Origin: Seonamhaeicola aphaedonensis
GTDB taxonomy: Bacteria > Bacteroidota > Bacteroidia > Flavobacteriales > Flavobacteriaceae
DNA length: 64,000 nucleotides
Assembly: GCF_003386195.1 (NCBI RefSeq)
Contig: NZ_QRDX01000001.1
Coordinates: 248,001-312,000, forward strand
Direction of reading: 5' to 3'
Shown: in pieces, positions 27,598 through 58,837 of the stretch
How positions within the stretch are numbered: position 1 is the stretch's first letter
Layout of the letters: each line of letters starts with the position of its first letter
Translations under genes and position numbers: made by a program
The notes under the pieces: model-generated
Database searches by the model: none
What the model saw: the letters and a program-made list of their open reading frames with translations, nothing else
Told to the model about the DNA's origin: nothing

Positions 27598-28872
27598 TTA
27601 CTGAGGAAATTTTGCCTTTATTTTATCTAGAGATAAATTGTGAATACTTCCTACATGGGTATGTTGTTTAGAAGTATCTGGAATATAAGTACCGTCTTGT
27701 ACTTCTCCTCCAATTTTTTGATAAGCTTCTCTAAAGCTTTGCCCTTCAACAACAAGCGTATTGATATTGTCTACAGTAAAAAGATATTTGTATTTATCAT
27801 CATTCAAATCAACATCTTTTACAATTACTTGCTGAATGGCATAGTTGAAAATATCCAGAATATCTTTTAGATCTTCAAAAGCAGCAATCATATTTTCCTT
27901 TAACAACTGAAAATCTCTATGGTAACCACTTGGTAAGTTATTGGTGATTAATACCATTTCTGTTTGAAGCGCTTGAATCTTGTTAGATTTTCCCCTAATC
28001 AACTCAAATACATCTGGATTCTTTTTATGAGGCATGATACTACTACCTGTGGTTAACTCATCTGGAAAGGTTACAAATCCGAAATTCTGACTCATATATA
28101 AACATACATCCATAGCAAATCTTGAAAGGGTGTTTGCCAAACTTCCTAAGGCTGCAGAAATAGTGCGTTCATTTTTTCCTCGTCCCATTTGTGCTGCAAC
28201 TACATTATATTTTAAGGTTGAAAATTCCATTTCTTGGGTTGTTAATTCTCTGTCGATTGGAAAAGAACTACCATAGCCCGCGGCAGATCCTAAGGGATTT
28301 TGATCTACCGTTTTTAAAGCGGCATTTAATAAAAACACATCATCAATCATCAACTCTGCATAAGCCGAAAACCATAACCCAAATGATGATGGCATAGCAA
28401 CTTGCAAGTGCGTATAACCAGGTAAAAGTTTATCCTTATGCGTTTCTGCCAAATCTAAAAGTGTATCAAACAATGTTTTTACTTTGGTTTTAATTAATTT
28501 TAAATTCTCTTTATAATAAAGATGACATGCCACTAAAACTTGGTCATTTCTTGAACGTGCTGTGTGTATTTTTTTACCAACATCTCCCAAAGATTTCGTT
28601 AACTCAAATTCAATTTTAGAATGTACATCTTCAAATTGTTCATCAATAACAAAAACTCCTTCCTCAATTTGTTTAGCTAAAACCTCCAGACCTACTAAAA
28701 GCTGTTCTAATTCTTTGGCTGATAAAACACCAATACTTTGTAGCATTTTTGCGTGTGCTTTTGATGCAATAACATCATACTTTGCTATATGAATATCAAT
28801 TTCTCGGTCGTTACCTACCGTGAATTGTTCTATTTTATTGTCTATTGATATCCCTTTGTCCCAGAGTTTCAT
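27598..28872 (-). CDS. argH: argininosuccinate lyase
   Basis: The last step of arginine synthesis, cleaving argininosuccinate to arginine and fumarate. Its 424 residues are somewhat shorter than the E. coli protein but normal for Bacteroidota. The superfamily signature TTGSSIMPHKKNP is present with the mobile catalytic-serine loop, and HTARSRNDQV and PGYTHLQVAMP are also seen. It is the last gene of the arg-pro operon, 34 bases after argE. Confidence 0.95.
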   Translation of the reverse strand: MKLWDKGISIDNKIEQFTVGNDREIDIHIAKYDVIASKAHAKMLQSIGVLSAKELEQLLVGLEVLAKQIEEGVFVIDEQFEDVHSKIEFELTKSLGDVGKKIHTARSRNDQVLVACHLYYKENLKLIKTKVKTLFDTLLDLAETHKDKLLPGYTHLQVAMPSSFGLWFSAYAELMIDDVFLLNAALKTVDQNPLGSAAGYGSSFPIDRELTTQEMEFSTLKYNVVAAQMGRGKNERTISAALGSLANTLSRFAMDVCLYMSQNFGFVTFPDELTTGSSIMPHKKNPDVFELIRGKSNKIQALQTEMVLITNNLPSGYHRDFQLLKENMIAAFEDLKDILDIFNYAIQQVIVKDVDLNDDKYKYLFTVDNINTLVVEGQSFREAYQKIGGEVQDGTYIPDTSKQHTHVGSIHNLSLDKIKAKFPQ

Positions 28873-28906: not shown

Positions 28907-29971
28907 TTAAACGATTACCCGATTCAACAATTCAACATAAATTTTAATACCTTCTTCGATTTCGTTTAAATAAATAAATTCATCTGCCGAATGCGAACGT
29001 GTACTATCTCCAGGTCCTAGTTTTAAACTAGGACAAGATAAAACCGCTTGATCTGATAAGGTTGGCGACCCATAAGTGCTTCGTCCCATGTCAATACCTG
29101 CTTTAACTAAAGCATGGTCTGTTGGTATTGACGATGAATTTAATCGTAAACTACGTGGTGTGATGCTGGTTACTGGCGCATTATCTTGTAATATTTTGTC
29201 TATTTCAGCATTAGTATAAGCATCATTTACCCTAACATCAATTACCAAATTCAAATCTGCTGGAACCGCATTGTGTTGTTTTCCTGCATTGATTTGGCTC
29301 ACTGTTAATTTTACATCACCTAAAGCTTCAGAACCCTTTTCAAACTTAAAATCTTTAAACCACTGCAATACATCAATAGCTTTATAAATCACATTGTCAT
29401 CATTTGGGTGTGCTGCATGACTTGGTGTACCGGTTATAACTGCATCAAAAACTACTAGCCCTTTTTCTGCGATAGCTAAATTCATCAAGGTTGGCTCTCC
29501 CACAATGGCTACATCAATTTTTGGAATCACAGATAACATACTGTTTAAACCATTGGGGCCACTACTTTCTTCTTCTGCAGAAGCTACAATCACCAAATTA
29601 TATTTTAGCTTTTTATGATGGTAATAATAGGTGAAAGTTGCCAGTAGAGACACCAAGCAACCACCCGCATCATTACTTCCTAAACCATATAATTTTCCAT
29701 CTTCAACAATGGCTTTAAAAGGGTCTTTAGTATATGCTGAATTAGGTCTTACGGTATCGTGATGGGAATTGAGTAGTAACGTTGGATTACCTTCTTCAAA
29801 ATATTTATTAACTGCCCAAACGTTATTTTTGGTTCTTTTGTATTCAATATCATAACGCTTAAACCAAGCTTCGATATGAGATGCGGTTTGGTCTTCTTCT
29901 GAAGAAAATGATTGCGTCTCAATTAACTGCTTTAATAATGCGATAGCATCTTGGGTTAATTCTTGAATCAT
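28907..29971 (-). CDS. argE: M20 family deacylase of arginine synthesis (acetylornithine/acylcitrulline deacylase)
   Basis: A 354-residue zinc peptidase of the M20 family. Metal and catalytic motifs are LLLNSHHDTVRPN, GLGSNDAGGCL, the catalytic glutamates in SAEEESSGPNG, and VGEPT. In Bacteroidota that use ArgF' the carbamoylation happens on acylated ornithine, so the true substrate is probably N-acyl-citrulline rather than acetylornithine. That point follows from pathway logic and is not visible in this sequence. It starts 2 bases after the stop of argB. Confidence 0.9.
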   Translation of the reverse strand: MIQELTQDAIALLKQLIETQSFSSEEDQTASHIEAWFKRYDIEYKRTKNNVWAVNKYFEEGNPTLLLNSHHDTVRPNSAYTKDPFKAIVEDGKLYGLGSNDAGGCLVSLLATFTYYYHHKKLKYNLVIVASAEEESSGPNGLNSMLSVIPKIDVAIVGEPTLMNLAIAEKGLVVFDAVITGTPSHAAHPNDDNVIYKAIDVLQWFKDFKFEKGSEALGDVKLTVSQINAGKQHNAVPADLNLVIDVRVNDAYTNAEIDKILQDNAPVTSITPRSLRLNSSSIPTDHALVKAGIDMGRSTYGSPTLSDQAVLSCPSLKLGPGDSTRSHSADEFIYLNEIEEGIKIYVELLNRVIV

Positions 29972-29973
29972 CG

Positions 29974-30756
29974 TTACAAGGTTATCATTGTAAAATTATC
30001 ATTTTCTTGTGTTAACATAGATGTATTTCCCATATTAATAGTATTAACACCATTATTCAAAGCGTCAAAACAATTCTCTAGTTTTGGTAGCATGCCATCA
30101 GCTATAATACCTTTTTTCAACAATTCATTATATATTTTTGAATCGATATGTTTAATTACTGAGTTCCTATCATTAATATCTTCTAATACGCCATTCAATT
30201 CAAAACAATAGTAAACCGAGGTTTCATAGACTTCGCTCATACCAACGGCAACCTGAGATGTAATAGTATCGGCGTTTGTATTTAACAATTGCCCATCACC
30301 ATCATGTGTTATGGCACAAAAAACCGGCGTAAAATCTGCTTTAATTAGTTTATCAATGGATTGGTGAGCAACTTTCTTTATATCACCCACAAAGCCAAAG
30401 TCGATATCTTTTACGGGTCTTTTGTATGATGTGATACTATTTACATCCGCTCCGGTTAATCCAATAGCATCAATACTTAGTGCTTGTAGTTTAGCAACAA
30501 TATTCTTGTTTACTAAACCACCATAAACCATCGTAATAACCTCTAATGTTTCTGCATCAGTAATACGTCTACCATCAACCATTTTTGACTTTATACCTAA
30601 TTTTGCAGCCACACTAGTAGCACGCTTACCGCCACCATGGACTAGTATTTTTTTACCTTCTAATTTTGAAAATAATTGTAAAAAAGCATCCAAGGATTTG
30701 GAGTCTTCAATAATATTCCCTCCTATTTTTACAATGGATAATTTTTCTTTAACCAT
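29974..30756 (-). CDS. argB: acetylglutamate kinase (N-acylglutamate kinase)
   Basis: Phosphorylates N-acyl-glutamate in the second step of arginine synthesis. 260 residues of the amino-acid kinase fold: VKIGGNIIED at the start, KILVHGGGKRATSVA, GLTGADVNS and QLLNTNADTITSQVA for ATP binding. It lacks the N-terminal extension of arginine-inhibited hexameric NAGKs, so feedback inhibition at this step may be absent. That fits control by the upstream leader. It overlaps argF' by 8 bases and is 2 bases before argE. Confidence 0.93.
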   Translation of the reverse strand: MVKEKLSIVKIGGNIIEDSKSLDAFLQLFSKLEGKKILVHGGGKRATSVAAKLGIKSKMVDGRRITDAETLEVITMVYGGLVNKNIVAKLQALSIDAIGLTGADVNSITSYKRPVKDIDFGFVGDIKKVAHQSIDKLIKADFTPVFCAITHDGDGQLLNTNADTITSQVAVGMSEVYETSVYYCFELNGVLEDINDRNSVIKHIDSKIYNELLKKGIIADGMLPKLENCFDALNNGVNTINMGNTSMLTQENDNFTMITL

Positions 30757-31687
30757 TTTCCAATATTTTTTTTAGCACTAATTGTGCTGCATAGGTTCTG
30801 TTATTGGCTTGTTCAATTACAATTGAACTGTCACTATCTAATACGGCATCTTTAACCACCACATTTCTTCTTACCGGTAAACAATGCATAAACTTGGCAT
30901 TGCCAATTTTTTCTTTTGTAATCATCCAATCTGGGTCTGTATTCACTACTTTTCCGTAATGTTCATAAGAGCTCCAGTTTTTCGTGTATACAAAATCGGC
31001 ATCTTCAAACGCTTCTTTTTGATTGTGATAAACAGGGGTGTCTCCAGTTATTTCAGGATTTAAATCATACCCCTCAGGATTGGCTATCACAAACTCCACA
31101 TCCATTTTCTGCATGGCTTGGGTAAAACTATTGGCTACGGCATGCGGTAGCGCCTTTATATGTGGCGCCCAACTCAATACCACTTTAGGTTTAGAAACTT
31201 TTTTGTATTCTGAAATAGTTAAAGCATCTGTAAATCCTTGTAGTGGATGTCCTGTTGCACTTTCCATATTCACAATTGGTACTGAAGCATATTTCATAAA
31301 AGCATTCATAACCTGCTCACTTTCATCTTTTTCTTTATCGGTTAATGTAGGAAATGCACGTACTGCTATGATATCACAATATTGAGATACTACCGCTGCA
31401 GCTTCTCTGATATGCTCAGCCATATTTCCATTCATTACAGTGCCATCTTCAAACTCCAATCCCCATGCATCGCCTGATACATTCATAACTATAGGATTCA
31501 TTCCTAAATTCAAAGCAGCCTTTTGAGTACTTAAGCGTGTGCGTAAACTAGAATTAAAAAAGAGCAACCCTAATGTTTTATCTTTTCCTAAGTCTCTATA
31601 TTTAAGCGGATTCGCTTTTAATTCTTTTGCTTCCTTAATCCAGTCATCTATATTGTCTATATCATTTATGGAAGTGTAATGTTTCAT
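30749..31687 (-). CDS. argF': N-acylornithine carbamoyltransferase (ArgF' type)
   Basis: The start is set at the ATG at 31687 (312 aa), which aligns with known ArgF' proteins; a 15-residue longer frame begins in the AT-rich spacer. Carbamoyl-phosphate loop FFNSSLRTRLSTQKAA (43-58), HPLQ and the C-terminal HCLPVRRN are present. The LRTRLS form of the STRT region and GAW-like loop place it with the N-acetyl/N-succinyl-ornithine transcarbamylases of Xanthomonas and Bacteroides, not with ordinary OTCases. The residue that separates acetyl (Glu) from succinyl (Pro) use is Ala90 here. It lies 49 bases after proB and overlaps argB by 8. Confidence 0.9.
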   Translation of the reverse strand: MKHYTSINDIDNIDDWIKEAKELKANPLKYRDLGKDKTLGLLFFNSSLRTRLSTQKAALNLGMNPIVMNVSGDAWGLEFEDGTVMNGNMAEHIREAAAVVSQYCDIIAVRAFPTLTDKEKDESEQVMNAFMKYASVPIVNMESATGHPLQGFTDALTISEYKKVSKPKVVLSWAPHIKALPHAVANSFTQAMQKMDVEFVIANPEGYDLNPEITGDTPVYHNQKEAFEDADFVYTKNWSSYEHYGKVVNTDPDWMITKEKIGNAKFMHCLPVRRNVVVKDAVLDSDSSIVIEQANNRTYAAQLVLKKILENG

Positions 31688-31736: not shown

Positions 31737-32501
31737 TCATTTTATCTTGGTAAACGGCACGTTATTTTCCATAGCATTCAGAATAAAATTATCCTCTAAA
31801 CCGTTTACTATCCATGTTTCTATTTTTGCTCTTTTTGTGACCTCAGCAGCTTGAATTTTACTTTGCATACCACCACTACCGTGCGATGATTTTGAACTTA
31901 CTACTTCATCAGCAAGCTCCTTAAAATCGGTTACTTCCTTTATAGTTTCTGGCATGCCATTCTGCATTGAACTTTTAGTATATATTCCGTTGGTATTTGT
32001 TGCTATAATAAACAAATCTGCATTAACTAAAGAAGCGGTCAAAGCGCCTAATTTATCATTATCTCCAAATTTAATTTCATCAGTAGCTACGGTATCATTC
32101 TCATTAATGATTGGAATATAATTGTTATTTACCAACACGTTGATAGTATTTGTAATATTGACTTTACTTTCCTCTTTTTCAAAATCTGAATAAGATAATA
32201 AACACTGAGAACTCAACAACCCATATTCCCTAAAAATTTCCTGATAGATTCTAATTAAATGAGGCTGCCCTATGGAAGCTAAGGCTTGTTTAACAAAAAG
32301 CTCCTTACGTTTACTTTCCAGTTTTACAAATTGCTTTGCAACAGCTATAGCCCCAGAGCTTACTATAATAAACTCACAGGTATCTTGAAGTTTAGCAATT
32401 TGATTGGCGATGTCCTCAATCTTTCCTCTGGAAATATTATTCGTTTCCTTGGTTAAGGTATTGGAGCCTATTTTTAGTAATATGCGTTTCTTTTTTGGCA
32501 T
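31737..32501 (-). CDS. proB: glutamate 5-kinase
   Basis: The first step of proline synthesis. 254 residues of the amino-acid kinase domain only: RILLKIGSNTLTKE, FIIVSSGAIAVAK, INENDTVATDEIKFGDNDKL and GSGGMQSKIQAAEVTKR. The C-terminal PUA domain of the E. coli enzyme (367 aa) is missing, which is common in Bacteroidota. It sits one base after proA inside the arginine operon, so proline and arginine genes share one transcript. Confidence 0.92.
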   Translation of the reverse strand: MPKKKRILLKIGSNTLTKETNNISRGKIEDIANQIAKLQDTCEFIIVSSGAIAVAKQFVKLESKRKELFVKQALASIGQPHLIRIYQEIFREYGLLSSQCLLSYSDFEKEESKVNITNTINVLVNNNYIPIINENDTVATDEIKFGDNDKLGALTASLVNADLFIIATNTNGIYTKSSMQNGMPETIKEVTDFKELADEVVSSKSSHGSGGMQSKIQAAEVTKRAKIETWIVNGLEDNFILNAMENNVPFTKIK

Positions 32502-32502
32502 T

Positions 32503-33699
32503 CTATCTTATTTGTCCGTTACCATGAACATACCATTTATTAGTTACCAAATGTTGCAGACCAATTGGTCCTCTTTGGTGTAATTTATCTGTACTTATAG
32601 CCAACTCGCCACCTAAACCTAATTGTCCGCCATCAGTAAATCTGGTTGAGGCATTATGATAGACTGCCGCAGTATCTACATTTTCCATGAAGGTTTTAGC
32701 TTCGGCTTCATCGTTTGTTATGATGGATGACGAATGTCCTCCAGAATATTTGTTGATTTTAGCAATGGCATTAGCATTAGAGTCTATTTCACCAATAACT
32801 ATTTTATAATCTAAAAATTCTTCATACCAAATATCATCAGATTCAAAACTATTAATTTCTTCAAACTTAGATGTTTGTGCATCTCCTAAAATCTCAACAT
32901 TAAACTCTTTTAATTTTGAAATTAAGGTTTTCATAAAACGTTCTTTATCAGGTAAATTAGAATCAACAAGCACTTTATCAACAGCATTACATGCCGAAAT
33001 TTTAGCTGTCTTTCCATTAATAATTACATCTAAGGCAATAGATTTATTAGCATCTTTATGCACATAAACAAAATTGTTTCCACGACCACTTACGATTACC
33101 GGACACGCCGCATGCTCTTTTACAAAAGCAATTAAACGCTCACCACCACGAGGCACTATTAAATCTACTGGCTGTGTTGGCTTTTCTAGAAATGCTTGTG
33201 TTTCTGTTCTATCAAATTGCAAATACTCAACCCAATCTTTAGATGCTCCCTCTTCTTTTAACACTTGGTGCCACAATTCCACAATTTTTAAATTAGAACG
33301 CAACGATTCTTTACCTCCTTTTAATAAAATTTTGTTTCCAGATTTAAAGGCAATTCCAGCAGCTTCTACTGTTACGTCTGGTCTTGATTCATAAATAATA
33401 AGTACCGTACCAAACGATGCGGTTTTATTGTAAACCTGCATACCGTTATCGTGCTTAAAACTAAAACGTTCTACCCCTACTGGGTCTTCCTGAGAAGCTA
33501 AATGTGTTACGGCTTTAATCATTTCATCAACTTTAGAATCGTCAACTTTTAAACGGTCATACATTGAGATGTCTTCGCCATTGTATGATTCTAAATCTAC
33601 TTTATTTATATCAATTATTGCTTGACGTTCTTGCTCTAAAAGCATTGCCATTTTAAGCAATACCGCATTTCTTGTTTCTATGGATAATAATGTGTTCAT
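32503..33699 (-). CDS. proA: glutamate-5-semialdehyde dehydrogenase (gamma-glutamyl phosphate reductase)
   Basis: Reduces glutamyl-5-phosphate with NADPH, the second step of proline synthesis. I place the start at the ATG at 33699 (398 aa), which matches the family N-terminus (NTLLSIETRN) and has an A-rich upstream stretch; an ATG 7 codons earlier (33720) is also possible. Blocks seen are IYESRPDVTVEAA, KGGKESLRSN, RGGERLIAFVKEHA and the catalytic cysteine in AKISACNAVDKV. Followed one base later by proB. Confidence 0.92.
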   Translation of the reverse strand: MNTLLSIETRNAVLLKMAMLLEQERQAIIDINKVDLESYNGEDISMYDRLKVDDSKVDEMIKAVTHLASQEDPVGVERFSFKHDNGMQVYNKTASFGTVLIIYESRPDVTVEAAGIAFKSGNKILLKGGKESLRSNLKIVELWHQVLKEEGASKDWVEYLQFDRTETQAFLEKPTQPVDLIVPRGGERLIAFVKEHAACPVIVSGRGNNFVYVHKDANKSIALDVIINGKTAKISACNAVDKVLVDSNLPDKERFMKTLISKLKEFNVEILGDAQTSKFEEINSFESDDIWYEEFLDYKIVIGEIDSNANAIAKINKYSGGHSSSIITNDEAEAKTFMENVDTAAVYHNASTRFTDGGQLGLGGELAISTDKLHQRGPIGLQHLVTNKWYVHGNGQIR

Positions 33700-33731
33700 T
33701 TTCTTTTTTTCAGTGTTCATTTATCTATTAT

Positions 33732-34880
33732 CTATTTTACAGTTTCTGTTATTTTCTTGAGGGCTACATTCAAAATATCAAAGAACTCATCTACATGAAC
33801 CTTTTCAATATTCAAAGGTGGTAAAATGCGTAATAATTTTTTGTTGGCAGCACCACCAGTGAATACCTTATGATTATAAATTAATTCTTTTCTAAGCGCC
33901 CCAACTTCAAAATCAAATTCTAGCCCGAGCATTAAGCCCCTTCCTTTTATTTTTTTTATCTGCGGAATGTCTTTAGCCTTTTCAACAAAATAGGTCCCTA
34001 CTTCATTTACATTCTCTAATAAATTTTCAGATTCAATGGTATTTAGAACCGACAAACCCGCTGCACATGCTAAATGATTGCCTCCAAATGTGGTTCCCAA
34101 CATACCATATTGGGCTTCGATGTTAGGGTGAATTAAAATTCCTCCAATAGGGAATCCATTCCCCATACCTTTAGCTATTGAAATAATGTCTGGTGTTACA
34201 TTATAGTACTGAAATGCGAAAAACTTACCTGAACGCCCATAACCAGATTGCACTTCATCAGCAATAAACATGGTGTTATTAGCTTTACAAAGTGCATCCA
34301 CTTGTTCAAAGAACTCAGCAGTTCCTTGGTCTAAACCTCCAACACCTTGAATAAATTCTACAATTACCGCACATACGTCATCTCTCTCTAATTCGGTTTT
34401 AACAGCATCAATATCATTCAATTCTAAAATAGTTACATCCTGTTGTGCATTGATTGGTGCTACGATATTTGGATTATCAGTTGCTGCCACAGCGGCAGAT
34501 GTACGTCCATGAAAGCCTTTTTTAAAAGCTACTACACGTTTCTTTCTAGTTTTAAAAGATGCCATTTTTAGTGCATTCTCATTAGCTTCAGCTCCAGAAT
34601 TCACCAAAAACAACTGATAACCATCACATCCAGAAAGTTGTTCCAATTTACTTGCTAACTCCTGCTGTAGTGGGTTTTGAATGGCATTAGAATAAAATCC
34701 CAATGCATTCACTTGTTCTGTAACCGCCTTTATATAATTTGGATGCGCATGCCCAATAGAAATCACAGCATGTCCTCCGTAAAGGTCCAAATATTCAGCC
34801 CCTTTGTCATCATAAATATGAATTCCTTTTCCTGAAACCGGTGTTACATCATATAATGGATAAACGTCAAATAATGGCAT
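33732..34880 (-). CDS. argD: acetylornithine aminotransferase
   Basis: A class III PLP aminotransferase of 382 residues that makes N-acyl-ornithine from N-acyl-glutamate semialdehyde. GGHAVISIGHAHP, VNSGAEANENALKMA, GFHGRT, IADEVQSGYGRSG and the Schiff-base lysine in SIAKGMGNGFPIGG are all present. It sits 2 bases downstream of proC. Such enzymes may also act in proline or lysine routes, but the operon supports arginine. Confidence 0.93.
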   Translation of the reverse strand: MPLFDVYPLYDVTPVSGKGIHIYDDKGAEYLDLYGGHAVISIGHAHPNYIKAVTEQVNALGFYSNAIQNPLQQELASKLEQLSGCDGYQLFLVNSGAEANENALKMASFKTRKKRVVAFKKGFHGRTSAAVAATDNPNIVAPINAQQDVTILELNDIDAVKTELERDDVCAVIVEFIQGVGGLDQGTAEFFEQVDALCKANNTMFIADEVQSGYGRSGKFFAFQYYNVTPDIISIAKGMGNGFPIGGILIHPNIEAQYGMLGTTFGGNHLACAAGLSVLNTIESENLLENVNEVGTYFVEKAKDIPQIKKIKGRGLMLGLEFDFEVGALRKELIYNHKVFTGGAANKKLLRILPPLNIEKVHVDEFFDILNVALKKITETVK

Positions 34881-34882
34881 GT

Positions 34883-35677
34883 TTAACTATTTTTAATTTG
34901 ATTAATTTTTTCGAATGAAGCATTGATTCCTTTGATTAAAGAAGAACTCAATCCTTGATGCTCCATTTCATTTAATCCCTCAATAGTGCAACCACTAGGA
35001 GTTGTTACTCTATCAATCTCTGCTTCTGGGTGTCTACCAGATTCTTTCAACAAACTAGCCGCCCCATAACAGGTTTGCAACGCTAATTGATGTGCTTCTT
35101 CGGCTTCAAACCCTAATTGAATAGCACCTTGGGTAGTGGCACGTACCAAACGCATCCAAAAAGCAATACCGCTGGCACAAATTACTGTGGCTGCTTGAAT
35201 TTGTTCTTCAGGAATTACCATAGTAGTTCCTAATTGGTTAAAAATGGTTTTAGCCAATTCAATTTTTTCTTCACCAATTTCATTAGCCGATAAACAGGTC
35301 ATGGATTTCCCTATGGAAATAGCTGTATTTGGCATGACGCGAATAATATGCTTATCTGTACCAATAACACTTTCAATTTTTGAAATAGCAAATCCAGCGG
35401 CTACCGACATAATTAAATGTTTCTTAGTAATCTCTGTGGCTACTTCTTTTAAAACAAATTCTACATGCCTTGGTTGCAAAGCGAAAATCACTAAATCAGA
35501 ATTCAGAACCGCCTCTCTATTATCGTTGGTAATGATGACATTTTCTTCATCTTCAAACTCAGAAACCGCAGATGTATTCTTGTCACTCAAATATAAAGAG
35601 GTAAACGTTTTATTTTTGATTAAGCCTTTGGCTATTGAACTTCCCAAATTTCCAGTTCCTATGATAGCTATTTTCAT
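34883..35677 (-). CDS. proC: pyrroline-5-carboxylate reductase
   Basis: The last step of proline synthesis. 264 residues: Rossmann motif IAIIGTGNLGSSIAKGL at the start, FALQPRHVEFVL, VMPNTAISIGKSMT and the C-terminal signature TPSGCTIEGLNEME. It lies between argC and argD. A 65-base palindromic repeat (35693-35757) separates it from argC. Confidence 0.93.
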   Translation of the reverse strand: MKIAIIGTGNLGSSIAKGLIKNKTFTSLYLSDKNTSAVSEFEDEENVIITNDNREAVLNSDLVIFALQPRHVEFVLKEVATEITKKHLIMSVAAGFAISKIESVIGTDKHIIRVMPNTAISIGKSMTCLSANEIGEEKIELAKTIFNQLGTTMVIPEEQIQAATVICASGIAFWMRLVRATTQGAIQLGFEAEEAHQLALQTCYGAASLLKESGRHPEAEIDRVTTPSGCTIEGLNEMEHQGLSSSLIKGINASFEKINQIKNS

Positions 35678-35767: not shown

Positions 35768-36751
35768 TTAAAAGTATGTGGCTTTTAATTGCAACCCGGT
35801 TGTTTCTTCTAACCCGAACATTAAATTCATATTTTGAACAGCCTGTCCTGAGGCTCCTTTCAATAAATTATCTATAATGCTGGTTACCAATAATTTACCT
35901 TGATGCTTGTGTAAATGAATTAAACATTTATTGGTATTCACTACTTGTTTTAAATGTAATTGGTCATCACTCAAAAAAGTGAAAGCAGCCTCTTTGTAAA
36001 ATGATTTATAAATATCTTTTGCTTCCTGAAGCGTTCCTTCAAAATCGGTGTAAATAGTGGCAAAAATTCCTCTTGAAAAATTTCCTCTATTGGGCATAAA
36101 GAGAATATCTGAGTCGAAATTATTCTGTAAATGTTTAACCGATTGATTTATTTCTCCCAAATGCTGATGGGTAAATGGTTTGTAATACGAAAAGTTATTA
36201 TCTCGCCAAGTAAAGTGTGTTGTAGCTGATAGTGAAGTTCCTGCACCAGTCGCTCCTGTTACCGCATTGATATGCACATCTTGATTTAGCAAACCTGCAT
36301 TTGCCAACGGCAACAAACCTAATTGAATGGTTGTTGCAAAACAGCCTGGATTGGCTATATAGTTTGCACTTTCAATAGCTTTTTTTTGTAACTCTGGTAA
36401 ACCATAAACAAAAGTCTTTCCATCAAATACTTTATCGGCTTCTAACCTGAAATCATTTCCTAAATCAATAATTTTAGTGCTTTTAGAAAATGTATTGGCC
36501 TCTAAAAACTTCACCGAATTCCCATGACCTAAGCATAAAAACAAGACATCAACATCAGGATTCACAGTATCAGTAAAGGTTTTATCTAAAGAGCCCACCA
36601 AATCCTGATGCACTTTACTTATTTGGTTACCCGCATTACTGGTACTAAATACAAAGTCTATATCAGCTTCAGGATGAGCAATTAATAATCGGATTAACTC
36701 ACCTGCCGTATAACCTGCACCTCCTATGATTCCTACTTTAATACTTTTCAT
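35768..36751 (-). CDS. argC: N-acetyl-gamma-glutamyl-phosphate reductase
   Basis: 327 residues of the short, type 1 family: GIIGGAGYTAGELIRLL as NADPH fold, LGHGNS, and the active-site cysteine in ANPGCFATTIQLGL. A later conserved block is TGATGAGTSLS. It reduces the acylglutamyl phosphate made by ArgB. Flanked on both sides by repeat-containing spacers (35693-35757 and 36771-36812). Confidence 0.94.
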   Translation of the reverse strand: MKSIKVGIIGGAGYTAGELIRLLIAHPEADIDFVFSTSNAGNQISKVHQDLVGSLDKTFTDTVNPDVDVLFLCLGHGNSVKFLEANTFSKSTKIIDLGNDFRLEADKVFDGKTFVYGLPELQKKAIESANYIANPGCFATTIQLGLLPLANAGLLNQDVHINAVTGATGAGTSLSATTHFTWRDNNFSYYKPFTHQHLGEINQSVKHLQNNFDSDILFMPNRGNFSRGIFATIYTDFEGTLQEAKDIYKSFYKEAAFTFLSDDQLHLKQVVNTNKCLIHLHKHQGKLLVTSIIDNLLKGASGQAVQNMNLMFGLEETTGLQLKATYF

Positions 36752-36825: not shown

Positions 36826-38001
36826 TTAAGAATTTACGTGTTGATATATTTTATTTTGGTTTCCAAGAATTTTAATGAACCCTTTAGCATCATCTGCTGT
36901 CCATCCCTTGTTTTCCTCTCCATAGCTACCAAATTTAGCACTCATTAAATCATGCTCCGAACTAATACCATCTAACGAAAAATGATAAGGTAGTAACGTC
37001 ACAACAACATTACCACTAACTTTATCTTGAGAACTTGTTAAAAAAGCTTCAATATCTCTCATTACAGGATCTAAATACTGTCCTTCATGTAAATGCATAC
37101 CATAGAAACTAGATAAATATTCTTTATGCTGTAATTGCCATTTTGTTAAGGTGTGCTTTTCTAATAAATGATGTGCCTTGATAGTAATTAAAGCTGCAGC
37201 AGCTTCAAAACCAACCCTACCTTTAATCCCTACAATGGTATCACCTACGTGTATGTCTCTCCCAATTCCGTAAGCAGATGCTAAATTGTTTAAGACTTCT
37301 ATGTTAATCTCAGGAGCATTTTCAACACCATTTACAGCAACCAACTCCCCTTTTTCAAAAGTCAATTTTACTTTTTCTGGCTCAGAGTGCTTTACTTGTG
37401 ACGGATAAGCATGCTCTGGTAGCGGTTGGTCTGAGGTTAAAGTCTCTGCACCCCCAACACTGGTTCCCCATAGGCCTTTATTGATAGAATACTTGGCTTT
37501 TTCCCAAGACATATCAATACCATTAGCTTTTAAATAATCTATTTCTTGCTGTCTGGTTAACTGTTCGTCTCTAATAGGTGTGATAATTTCTATCTCTGGC
37601 GCTAAGGTTTGAAAAATCATATCAAACCTTACTTGGTCATTACCAGCACCTGTGCTACCATGAGCAATGTAACCTGCCCCTATACTTTTTGCATACTCAA
37701 CAATTTCAATGGCTTGAATAATTCTTTCAGCACTTACTGATAAAGGATAAGTGTTATTCTTTAATACATTTCCAAAAATTAAATATTTAACCACTTTTTG
37801 GTAAAATGTAGCTACTGCATCAATGTTTTTGTAGGTAGCAACACCCATTTTATAGGCATTACTTTCAATATGGTTGATTTCATCTTTTGTGAATCCACCG
37901 GTATTAACACTCACAGCATGAACTTCAAATTCTTTTGACAAACTTACCGCACAATATGATGTATCTAAACCGCCACTATATGCTATTACTAATTTTTTCA
38001 T
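36826..38001 (-). CDS. argG: argininosuccinate synthase
   Basis: Joins citrulline and aspartate using ATP. 391 residues: PP-loop AYSGGLDTSYCAVSL at the N-terminus, HGSTGAGNDQVRFD, and the citrulline/aspartate-binding region with WGTSVGGAE. Second gene of the operon in transcription order, 95 bases after the GNAT gene and 74 bases before argC. Confidence 0.95.
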   Translation of the reverse strand: MKKLVIAYSGGLDTSYCAVSLSKEFEVHAVSVNTGGFTKDEINHIESNAYKMGVATYKNIDAVATFYQKVVKYLIFGNVLKNNTYPLSVSAERIIQAIEIVEYAKSIGAGYIAHGSTGAGNDQVRFDMIFQTLAPEIEIITPIRDEQLTRQQEIDYLKANGIDMSWEKAKYSINKGLWGTSVGGAETLTSDQPLPEHAYPSQVKHSEPEKVKLTFEKGELVAVNGVENAPEINIEVLNNLASAYGIGRDIHVGDTIVGIKGRVGFEAAAALITIKAHHLLEKHTLTKWQLQHKEYLSSFYGMHLHEGQYLDPVMRDIEAFLTSSQDKVSGNVVVTLLPYHFSLDGISSEHDLMSAKFGSYGEENKGWTADDAKGFIKILGNQNKIYQHVNS

Positions 38002-38096: not shown

Positions 38097-38717
38097 CTAT
38101 TTATTTTTGTCTTTTTTAAGAAACAGCGCTTCTTTAATTCGTTTTAGTCTATTAAATGTTTTCTCTTTAATCACAGTTTTTTTCTCTTTCTTCACTTTTT
38201 CAGGGTCATAGAGCATCCCTGTACACAAACACATTTTTCTATTAGTACGTGTTAACACATCATAATTTTTACAGGTTTGGCAACCATCCCAAAAGGTAGG
38301 GTCATCTGTTAATTCTGAAAATGGCACAGGTTTATATCCTAAATCACTATTCATTTTCATAACCGCTAGACCCGTGGTGATACTAAACACCTTTGCATCT
38401 GGAAATTTTTCTCTAGAATGCGCAAATACCTTCAATTTAATTTTTTTTGCTAGACCGCCACCTCTATAATCTGGATGAACAATGAGTCCAGAATTTGCTA
38501 CAAATTTTCCATGTCCCCACTTTTCTATGTAGCAAAAACCGGCAAACTTATCTCCGTCTAATGCAATTACGGCATTACCGTTTTCCATTTTTTTTGCAAT
38601 ATACTCAGGTGTTCGCCTTGCAATACCTGTTCCTCTTACAGCTGCAGATTCTGCTATAGTTTCGCAAATTTCTTCGGCGTATTTTATATGTGTTATATCG
38701 GCTATTACAACCTTCAT
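38097..38717 (-). CDS. GNAT acyltransferase, first gene of the arg-pro operon (candidate N-acylglutamate synthase)
   Basis: The start is set at the ATG at 38717 (206 aa), where the GNAT fold begins (MKVVIADITHIKYAEEI); a frame from 38771 adds 18 unrelated residues. The acyl-CoA loop is RGGGLAKK (85-92). The C-terminal quarter has an unusual cysteine set C146, C149, C163, C165 (DGCQTCK and MCLC), then a Lys-rich tail. The window has no classical ArgA or ArgJ, so this protein may supply the first acylation of glutamate. That role is inference from its position. Its start codon region can pair with the upstream leader frame (see findings). Confidence 0.8.
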   Translation of the reverse strand: MKVVIADITHIKYAEEICETIAESAAVRGTGIARRTPEYIAKKMENGNAVIALDGDKFAGFCYIEKWGHGKFVANSGLIVHPDYRGGGLAKKIKLKVFAHSREKFPDAKVFSITTGLAVMKMNSDLGYKPVPFSELTDDPTFWDGCQTCKNYDVLTRTNRKMCLCTGMLYDPEKVKKEKKTVIKEKTFNRLKRIKEALFLKKDKNK

Positions 38718-38797
38718 TTTCCCTTTAATTAAATGTCTAAATAAACTATTTTTAAGCTGAATTGGACGCACCTAATTCAAAATTACAATACATACCC

Positions 38798-38848
38798 TTA
38801 CGGGCGACGCGGGAAAAAGCGACGTACAAAGTTATTGTTAATTATCAT
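38798..38848 (-). CDS. short leader ORF 2, Arg/Pro-rich (candidate attenuator peptide)
   Basis: A 16-codon frame, MIINNNFVRRFFPRRP then TAA, ending 80 bases before the first operon gene. Four arginines (9, 10, 14, 15) and two prolines (13, 16) fill the second half. The arginine codons are CGT, CGC, CGT, CGC and both prolines are CCG. The ATG lies in the 7-base loop of a perfect 7-bp hairpin (38837-38857). Codons 11-13 (TTT TTC CCG) can pair with GGGAAAA at the start of the GNAT gene. Arginine and proline are exactly the products of the operon. No protein evidence; expression is inferred. Confidence 0.6.
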   Translation of the reverse strand: MIINNNFVRRFFPRRP

Positions 38849-38857
38849 GAAATTAAC
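38837..38857 (-). promoter_or_regulatory. hairpin presenting the leader ORF 2 start codon
   Basis: GTTAATT and AATTAAC are perfect inverted repeats of 7 bases around TCATGAT (minus-strand sense), so the ATG of leader ORF 2 sits in the loop. Pure A/T pairing makes it weak, but its placement is exact. Confidence 0.45.
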
Positions 38858-38941
38858 TTTAATTATAATTGCTATTGAAAAAAAATTGGACACTTTTGAA
38901 AAAATTTAAATTACGTTATTGAGTTTACTTCTTGGAGCATA

Positions 38942-39013
38942 TTATATGCAGCGACGACGACGCATGGGTAAACCGGGAGTAGTACAACGTATTTTGTTTT
39001 TAAAATTTTTCAT
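38942..39013 (-). CDS. short leader ORF 1, Arg-rich (candidate attenuator peptide)
   Basis: A 23-codon frame from ATG 39013..39011 to TAA 38944..38942. It begins MKNFKNKIRC, has prolines at 13 and 16 (both CCC), and ends MRRRRCI with four consecutive arginines (18-21; CGT CGT CGT CGC). All five arginine codons are CGN although AGA is the commonest arginine codon in neighbouring genes. It lies 93 bases upstream of leader ORF 2 in the same direction. The Arg run just before the stop is typical of amino-acid leader peptides. It is not matched to any family that I know. Confidence 0.55.
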   Translation of the reverse strand: MKNFKNKIRCTTPGLPMRRRRCI

Positions 39014-39238
39014 GGTGTAAATCTAATACATTATTTCATAAACGCCTAACAATGACTGCGTTTTTAATAAATTTCATAAATAACTAGCTTTTTATTAGAT
39101 ATCACTTTTTAATATAGCCTTTTTGACTATTTTTTTCTAAAAAAAAGTAACAACAAAAAACTCTGGGTATTTAAAAAATATAACTTTTTATATTTTAGAC
39201 AATCAAGAGTAAACGTTGTAGGCATGTAAAAACTAATT
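39014..39238 (-). other. spacer upstream of the arg-pro leaders, with one hairpin
   Basis: AT-rich, non-coding, and expected to hold the arg-pro promoter for the minus strand. I find no exact TAnnTTTG; TAGATTTA (39025-39018, minus) is one base off but too close to leader ORF 1. AAACGC (39040-39045) and GCGTTT (39058-39063) form a 6-bp hairpin usable as a terminator of the upstream DUF1080 gene or as an operator. Confidence 0.4.
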
Positions 39239-58696: not shown

Positions 58697-58709
58697 CTCT
58701 CGTATTAAT

Positions 58710-58837
58710 AGAGGAAAGATTTGACTGATTGCAACCTCTTCTAGTTTATTTCACTTAATAAAAAGATTCTGAAATAAATTGGAAATAAAAAATGCTAAAG
58801 GCAGTGTTTGCTTCCTTGACGTTTTCCGTCAAATCTT
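58710..58837 (+). promoter_or_regulatory. SAM-II-like riboswitch with expression platform upstream of metK
   Basis: P1 AGAGG (58710-58714) pairs with CCTCT (58735-58739). The loop GATTTGACTGATTGCAA and the distal TGCTAAAGGCAG (58793-58804) fit the SAM-II consensus as I remember it, with CTG (58725-58727)/CAG (58802-58804) as pseudoknot pairing. The expression platform is the hairpin TTGACG (58816-58821)/CGTCAA (58827-58832). The segment GTCAAATCTT (58828-58837) is a perfect 10-base complement of AAGATTTGAC (58716-58725) in the aptamer loop, so the two structures exclude each other. Should sense S-adenosylmethionine, the MetK product. Confidence 0.75.

Follow-up and report, generated by a model that had tools for sequence, protein, structure and literature searches.

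The operon for arginine and proline synthesis of Seonamhaeicola aphaedonensis is probably controlled by an arginine-specific, ribosome-mediated leader-peptide attenuator. In front of its first gene there are two short open reading frames (ORFs) with regulatory arginine codons, and the end of the second one lies within the first of two conserved RNA hairpins, P1 and P2, which the first-pass annotation of this DNA had missed. By a fixed criterion, an arginine-rich leader ORF is present in 139 of 149 loci of the same family, when 3.8 would be expected from shuffles, so that the earlier proposal of two leader peptides with regulatory arginine codons before an arginine operon is upheld by the relatives. 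The window, that is, the whole stretch of DNA analysed, comprises 64,000 nucleotides, and all coordinates below are positions in it.

The operon and the loci compared

The operon lies on the minus strand in the order GNAT-argG-argC-proC-argD-proA-proB-argF-argB-argE-argH. It opens with a GNAT acetyltransferase gene (38097..38717; PF00583), whose product is 99% identical to the GNAT protein of Seonamhaeicola sediminis, and continues with argG (36826..38001), argC (35768..36751; semialdehyde dehydrogenase domains), proC (34883..35677; P5CR_dimer), argD (33732..34880; class III aminotransferase), proA (32503..33720; aldehyde dehydrogenase family), proB (31737..32501; amino acid kinase), an argF-like carbamoyltransferase gene (30749..31687; start inferred at an internal ATG), argB (29974..30756; amino acid kinase), an argE-like M20 deacetylase gene (28907..29971) and argH (27598..28872). 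Ten of these genes were assigned by Pfam (with argC, argD, proA, proB, argB and the argE-like gene named by context), and the ORF of argH by its sequence and gene order. The operon serves arginine and proline synthesis, as had been stated, and it makes the amino acid that the leader would sense, arginine, as an attenuator in the broad sense should. Among 71 named loci of at least 12 kb, the 6 kb past GNAT hold ArgG, ArgC, ProC, ArgD, ProA and ProB in 50 and end at ProA in nine; the 11 loci that run from ArgD to ArgF and ArgB, with no proA or proB match in these 6 kb, and the one locus without pro genes count against the attenuator.

Upstream regions were collected for 238 loci, 237 of which have a GNAT start (L030 has none); 27 are exact duplicates and 210 are unique. 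The loci are the best-scoring GNAT matches, 149 of them from the same family, and weaker matches, including those of genus g147, were left out at that point. Additionally, two sets of 122 non-redundant loci were chosen separately, at 80% and at 75% identity, and one far locus, L300, gave no start.

Leader peptides rich in arginine codons

Leader 1 (38942..39013, minus strand) encodes MKNFKNKIRCTTPGLPMRRRRCI followed by a stop codon, as first described, and its ATG falls on the predicted transcription start. By the criteria used, it was also found in 106 of 191 loci, and those with both leaders are referred to as tandem loci. For leader 2, the frame noted at 38848-38798, MIINNNFVRRFFPRRP, is present, but the ATG at 38848 is unlikely to be its true start. 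An in-frame ATG, GTG or TTG stands 78-96 nt before the last arginine codon in 58 of 59 non-redundant tandem loci (TTG in 28, GTG in 16, ATG in 14; none in the remaining locus), and the start of leader 2 is most likely the GTG that occupies this common position at 38893. As the start is probably this in-frame GTG, the ATG would be internal to a leader of 31 aa, VSNFFSIAIIIKVNFMIINNNFVRRFFPRRP, which ends with its stop codon at 38798 (38798..38893, minus strand). A U-rich stretch (38898..38913, minus strand) lies right before this start, and a similar T-rich stretch was seen by eye in the tandem loci. A recount of the shorter frames confirmed nine arginine codons (five plus four), all CGT or CGC, and four proline codons (CCC, CCC, CCG and CCG).

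The end of leader 2 is the part that has been kept. In 191 of the 192 regions with a strict P2 core, a CGC[CA][CT] motif that contains the last arginine codon occurs 15-50 nt before P2, against 37.7 expected (one region lacks this anchor). Upstream of this codon, its frame continues without a stop for 20 codons or more in 99% of the 122 non-redundant loci, compared with 30% for either other frame, and the stop codon comes exactly two codons past the last arginine codon in 106 of the 122. The codon before the CGC anchor codon also specifies arginine in 169 of 191 loci, and its third base is the most variable (0.13, 0.20 and 0.46 by position). Outside the arginine codons, no third-position bias was observed in leader 2 (diversity of 0.615, 0.637 and 0.621 by codon position), which counts against the attenuator. 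The codons near the end of the leader are kept and the peptide itself is not. If the leaders are translated, as the open frame and the start codons suggest, they would be leader ORFs with codons for the operon's product, as in ribosome-mediated attenuators in the broad sense.

In leader 1, the anchored helix scan yielded just an internal helix, in a subset of loci, and a P1-like hairpin formed by its last arginine codon and stop was observed in 27% of cases, against 13% expected for a 5-mer, a weak excess on which we make no claim.

A -7 promoter element, TAGATTTA (39018..39025, minus strand), precedes leader 1 and differs only in its last base from TANNTTTG. Of the 59 non-redundant tandem loci, 47 have a TANNTTTR whose first base is 12 or 13 nt ahead of the ATG of leader 1. 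Of the 63 single-leader loci, 12 were left out for want of an ATG in the searched range, and in 30 of the other 51 the element starts 15-17 nt ahead of the ATG of leader 2. Given the position of the element and the -7 consensus and spacing of 4-5 nt from element to start site presented in PMC6847099, tandem transcripts are predicted to begin on the leader 1 ATG, and those of the single form about 3 nt before leader 2. Such a leaderless start would be unusual, as 87% of the predicted Flavobacterium johnsoniae transcripts described in the same source have leaders longer than 10 nt (PMC6847099).

Conserved hairpins

P2 (38759..38778, minus strand) has the form GAAUU-A-GG-UGCGU-CC-AAUUC, with a bulged A and the loop UGNGU. 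Its core, GGTGNG[TC]CC, is found in 192 of the 210 unique upstream regions, the other 18 being without a strict core, and in 143 of the 149 same-family loci, a figure that overstates the family because the regions were drawn from the best-scoring GNAT matches; the six loci without the core count against the attenuator. Six of the seven pairs of P2 show changes on both sides, and the loop and the bulged A are kept beyond what pairing needs. In three loci the core is replaced by GATGNGTTC, with the inner pair kept as A-U.

P1 (38793..38806, minus strand), CGCCC-GUAA-GGGUA, has the last arginine codon in its 5′ arm and the stop codon in its loop and flank. When the twelve pairs of P1 and P2 were evaluated in 122 aligned sequences, 92.9% were paired, compared with 88.2% after shuffling; 59 cells were changed on both sides, compared with 17.5, and pairing dropped to 17-59% when the partner column was shifted by one to three. 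In this alignment, the covariation signal is carried by P2. For P1, changes on both sides occur at only one of five pairs and the outer pair is formed in 78 of 118 sequences, a weakness that also counts against the attenuator. As so few of its pairs covary and RNAalifold without constraint predicted P2 only, P1 is proposed from base-pair probabilities (about 0.68 for the inner pairs), GC content and a few GCAC/GUGC lineages. By thermodynamic prediction, the pieces of the window are only moderately more stable than shuffled sequences (z from -1.2 to -1.8), and of its relatives L013 gives -0.98 and L112 0.08, no better than shuffles at all, which again counts against the attenuator. A pairing of the 5′ arm of P1 with the P2 loop was considered and rejected, since, when the alignment is inspected by eye, loop position N does not change along with the codon base opposite it.

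The anchored covariation scan of 122 loci recovered P2 and a further hairpin inside leader 2 of the tandem loci, P0 (38837..38857, minus strand; z 8.8), which has at least five Watson-Crick pairs in 42 of 59. The 7-bp hairpin that had been described around the ATG at 38848 is real, but the placement of an ATG in its loop is particular to the window, the only such case among the 42 loci.

The spacing is also conserved. In the middle 80% of loci, 33-35 nt separate the last arginine codon and the P2 core (full range 20-37). From its position, P2 can form with or without a stalled ribosome, which counts against the attenuator as proposed.

Arginine and proline as sensed amino acids

The arginine codons of the leaders are of a particular kind. 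Of the 369 present in the twelve codons preceding the last arginine codon of leader 2, 325 are CGU or CGC, as are 225 of the 289 in leader 1; in the 50 long ORFs of the window, these two make up 33% of arginine codons and AGA is the commonest, with 47%.

Proline, which had been put forward as a second sensed amino acid, does not hold up in that role, as it is replaceable and missing from part of the leaders. The proline codon before the stop, present in 183 of 191 loci and replaced by threonine, leucine or isoleucine in eight, falls in the 5′ arm of P1. Apart from it, 18 of 122 leader 2 peptides and seven of 59 leader 1 peptides are devoid of proline. In the sequences compared, arginine is the constant residue and proline is enriched but dispensable. 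Proline may still have a minor role in sensing, since its share of codons in the leaders (6.4% in leader 2 and 6.7% in leader 1) is roughly double that in the window genes (3.35%).

Distribution and the absence of ArgR

The RNA model R1 gave one strong match in its own genome (1e-16; the next had an E of 0.9). In a sample of 196 genomes from the order, with genus g147 heavily represented, it hit 17, of which 14 belong to this family and three, with weak matches, to others. Among the 23 family genomes without a GNAT match, six have argG over the cut-off. In four of these six (G003, G004, G006 and G023), which are of the same genus or the same family, a weak match lies about 700 nt before argG, ahead of a different gene of about 195-200 aa. 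Their leaders are diverged and have a P1-like hairpin but no P2 core; in three of them, the end reads VVRFPQTRP-stop or a close variant. In four relatives (L337, L338, L340 and L343), which have such a different gene before argG and keep a diverged arginine leader, the leader has stayed in place and the operon's first gene has been exchanged. Three further weak matches in GNAT-less genomes are not adjacent to argG.

By the same fixed criterion, similar arginine leaders precede GNAT in five of the 14 other families sampled: f36 (20 of 20 loci), f18 (6 of 6), f22 (6 of 6), f19 (4 of 5) and f17 (3 of 5), with 0.05-0.57 expected. No arginine leader was found in the 19 loci of f23, f24, f35, f37, f38, f40, f42, f50 and f52. 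In 19 of 19 loci of family f36, the leader pairs with the downstream region through a helix of 7 bp or more, compared with 41% when the partners are permuted, and it is formed by several different sequences; the f36 leader looks like a separate attenuator design. The leaders of this family (L273-L274, L276-L290, L292, L298 and L309) mostly read MQ..LAHRID..RRIPRRR-stop; those inspected use CGG codons and are surrounded by the covarying long-range helix. In other families of the order (L022, L023 and L027-L029), short ORFs ending in RR with an end hairpin and no P2 core were observed by eye.

The genome of the window has no match to PF01316 or PF02863, which sets the operon apart from a regulon of ArgR. 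Of the 299 family genomes, 297 have no ArgR (PF01316) match, and the other two have only a weak one, located in a frame of 312 aa. In a sample of 198 genomes of the phylum, 83 have the GNAT and 73 an ArgR match; they overlap in two, both weakly (G203, with a weak match, and G513, with five identical short matches), although this mutual exclusion is confounded with phylogeny because the families of the two groups differ. In genus g147 (probably Flavobacterium, a name inferred here), none of nine loci has the arginine leader and the genomes also lack ArgR, which counts against the attenuator. In a genome from the genus of the window, a second GNAT copy (L030; G001:C6:20181-24735) was observed on a small contig, with an ArgR gene some 4 kb away; contamination (3%) would be one explanation and a second copy under regulation another.

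Mechanism

In the proposed mechanism, a shortage of charged tRNA-Arg for CGU and CGC would stall the ribosome on the last arginine codons of leader 2, where it would cover P1 and hold it open, leaving the operon on. When arginine is plentiful, the ribosome would be released at the stop codon, P1 would close and expression would be cut. Leader 1 would add a similar check at an earlier point, and the leader system would substitute for the ArgR repressor missing from these genomes.

Diverse strategies could bring about the cut itself. As the first-pass annotation had reported for U-tract terminators, no terminator-like site was found in the window, and thus no intrinsic terminator of the classical trp/his type follows its leader. 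Such matches occur weakly in ten of the 122 loci, against 2.6 expected, all of them at P1, and the other 112, including the window, have none. The anchored scan of the 122 loci, which could miss helices shorter than 5 bp or with variable spacing, and the base-pair probabilities did not reveal mutually exclusive antiterminator and terminator helices, nor did the scan detect any covarying helix among the leader, P2 and the GNAT start. Since the family presents neither an intrinsic terminator nor an alternative helix, we tentatively favour Rho over blocked translation or decay; it would act on the leader once freed, during a pause of RNA polymerase close to P2. This reading agrees with the lack of a terminator, with the low G content of the RNA (7%) and with the precedent that PMC6386406 presents for speF.

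A bolder form of the proposal is doubtful. According to it, the leader would be a leaderless tandem arginine sensor with a ruler, in which the 33-35 nt would be the distance at which the stalled ribosome touches RNA polymerase paused at P2 and pushes it, or couples to it, past a Rho-prone pause; ArgR would have been replaced across Flavobacteriaceae, and in sister families the same arginine leader would have come to be followed by different RNA parts.

Another possibility, unlikely but still to be reckoned with, is that P1 and P2 determine how accessible the GNAT start is, or how exposed the RNA is to an RNase, and so control translation or mRNA decay without Rho, in a manner similar to speF. 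The missing terminator suits this explanation, as do the use of arginine codons and decay in the speF leader, according to PMC6386406, and the distance of about 50 nt, filled by AU-rich RNA, from the end of P2 to the GNAT ATG (44-57 nt for the central 80% of 122 loci). However, the full range of this distance is 40 to 229 nt, and no helix reaches the GNAT start.

It is quite unlikely that P1 and the U-rich spacer form a weak intrinsic terminator that is melted by the stalled ribosome. The spacer between P1 and P2 is certainly rich in T (56%, with 7% G), and the excess of terminator-like matches is confined to P1, but most loci lack such a site and, moreover, a ribosome on the stop codon would cover P1 too. 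In an improbable alternative, the leaders would be secondary and P2, alone or together with P1, would be the RNA to which a ligand or a protein binds, for example as an aptamer for arginine or as the site of a repressor. The conserved loop and bulged A and the absence of ArgR speak for this idea; by contrast, the four genomes with a different gene after the leader keep the arginine codons and P1 without the P2 core, which is not seen in other families either, and no Rfam family fits. At gathering score, none of them (speF orf34 leader and Flavo-1 included) matches the leader of the window, below that score there were only chance-level snoRNA matches (E of 3.8-5), and none was found up to an E of 0.1 in 16 other loci.

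Very improbable is an arrest by the nascent arginine-rich peptide with its Pro-stop end, independent of a lack of charged tRNA. In TnaC, the nascent peptide itself arrests the ribosome, and the near-constant proline before the stop could be read in this way. Nevertheless, this proline belongs to P1 and is lost in lineages where P1 has changed to CGCAC, the leaders of other families end in RRR-stop or FRV-stop, and no residue beyond arginine and the P1-bound proline is fixed in the leader, contrary to the conserved residues of TnaC-type arrest. Finally, hardly any weight is left for the translational switch proposed at first, in which TTTTCCC of leader 2 (38817-38811) pairs with GGGAAAA over the GNAT start (38723-38717) until the latter is released by ribosome stalling at RR or PRRP: both segments are present, the minimum-energy fold of 38718-38815 includes UUCCC/GGGAA and the window has no intrinsic terminator, but the pair is found in two of 191 loci only (the window, L001, and its sister, L002), the two regions share complementary runs of 7 bp or more in five of 122 loci against 2.6 expected, the complementarity of leader 2 to the region after P2 equals that of permuted pairs (6.36 versus 6.31), and the covariation proposed as its test does not appear as a leader-to-GNAT-start helix in the 122-locus scan.

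Relation to known systems

The control proposed here is of a known kind, with a new architecture and in a new lineage. In classical trp and his attenuators, a short ORF close to the 5′ end contains codons for the amino acid that the pathway makes, and in trp the last regulatory codon and the stop codon lie inside the 1:2 hairpin. The present leader resembles them in its short 5′ ORF with product codons and in the hairpin that includes the last arginine codon and the stop. It differs from them in the U-tract terminator and mutually exclusive helix, neither of which was found in Flavobacteriaceae, in its leaderless tandem leaders and in P2.

Two other systems sense arginine. In orf34-speF of Salmonella, as PMC6386406 describes it, arginine codons in a leader ORF sense arginine, no intrinsic terminator was found and Rho is involved; speF, however, codes for ornithine decarboxylase and not for arginine synthesis, the peptide is another one and its Rfam family does not match here. 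The rbfL leader of Staphylococcus aureus is likewise an upstream ORF that senses arginine through ribosome pausing, but in the account of PMC13009471 the pausing blocks a downstream RBS, the codons are AGA and AGG, and the target is one regulator gene.

With regard to the lineage, transcriptome data from Flavobacterium psychrophilum, a member of the same family as the window, gave strong clues of leader-peptide attenuation upstream of amino-acid operons, although the main text names no arginine leader (PMC9723704), and all nine loci of genus g147, probably Flavobacterium, are without the one described here. In 2010, the authors of a Firmicutes case stated that, to their knowledge, leader-peptide systems had been undemonstrated outside Proteobacteria and Actinobacteria before their own work (PMC2965389). 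In Actinobacteria, the relevant text of PMC1262725 reports that no RNA element was found upstream of arginine operons. No paper on an arginine leader in Bacteroidota was found in a literature search whose scope excluded most subscription papers.

If the attenuator is correct, Flavobacteriaceae, which mostly lack ArgR, would gain a means to control arginine synthesis, and leader-peptide control would be spread over several families of the phylum, for which one general mention was found in the literature. The mutual exclusion with ArgR makes a regulator swap testable, in spite of its confounding with phylogeny. Additionally, the codons, hairpins and spacing offer direct mutational handles on a form of attenuation that lacks an intrinsic terminator and would operate in bacteria whose translation does not rely on Shine-Dalgarno sequences. 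Elsewhere in the window, Rfam places a SAM-II riboswitch at 58705-58809 on the plus strand.
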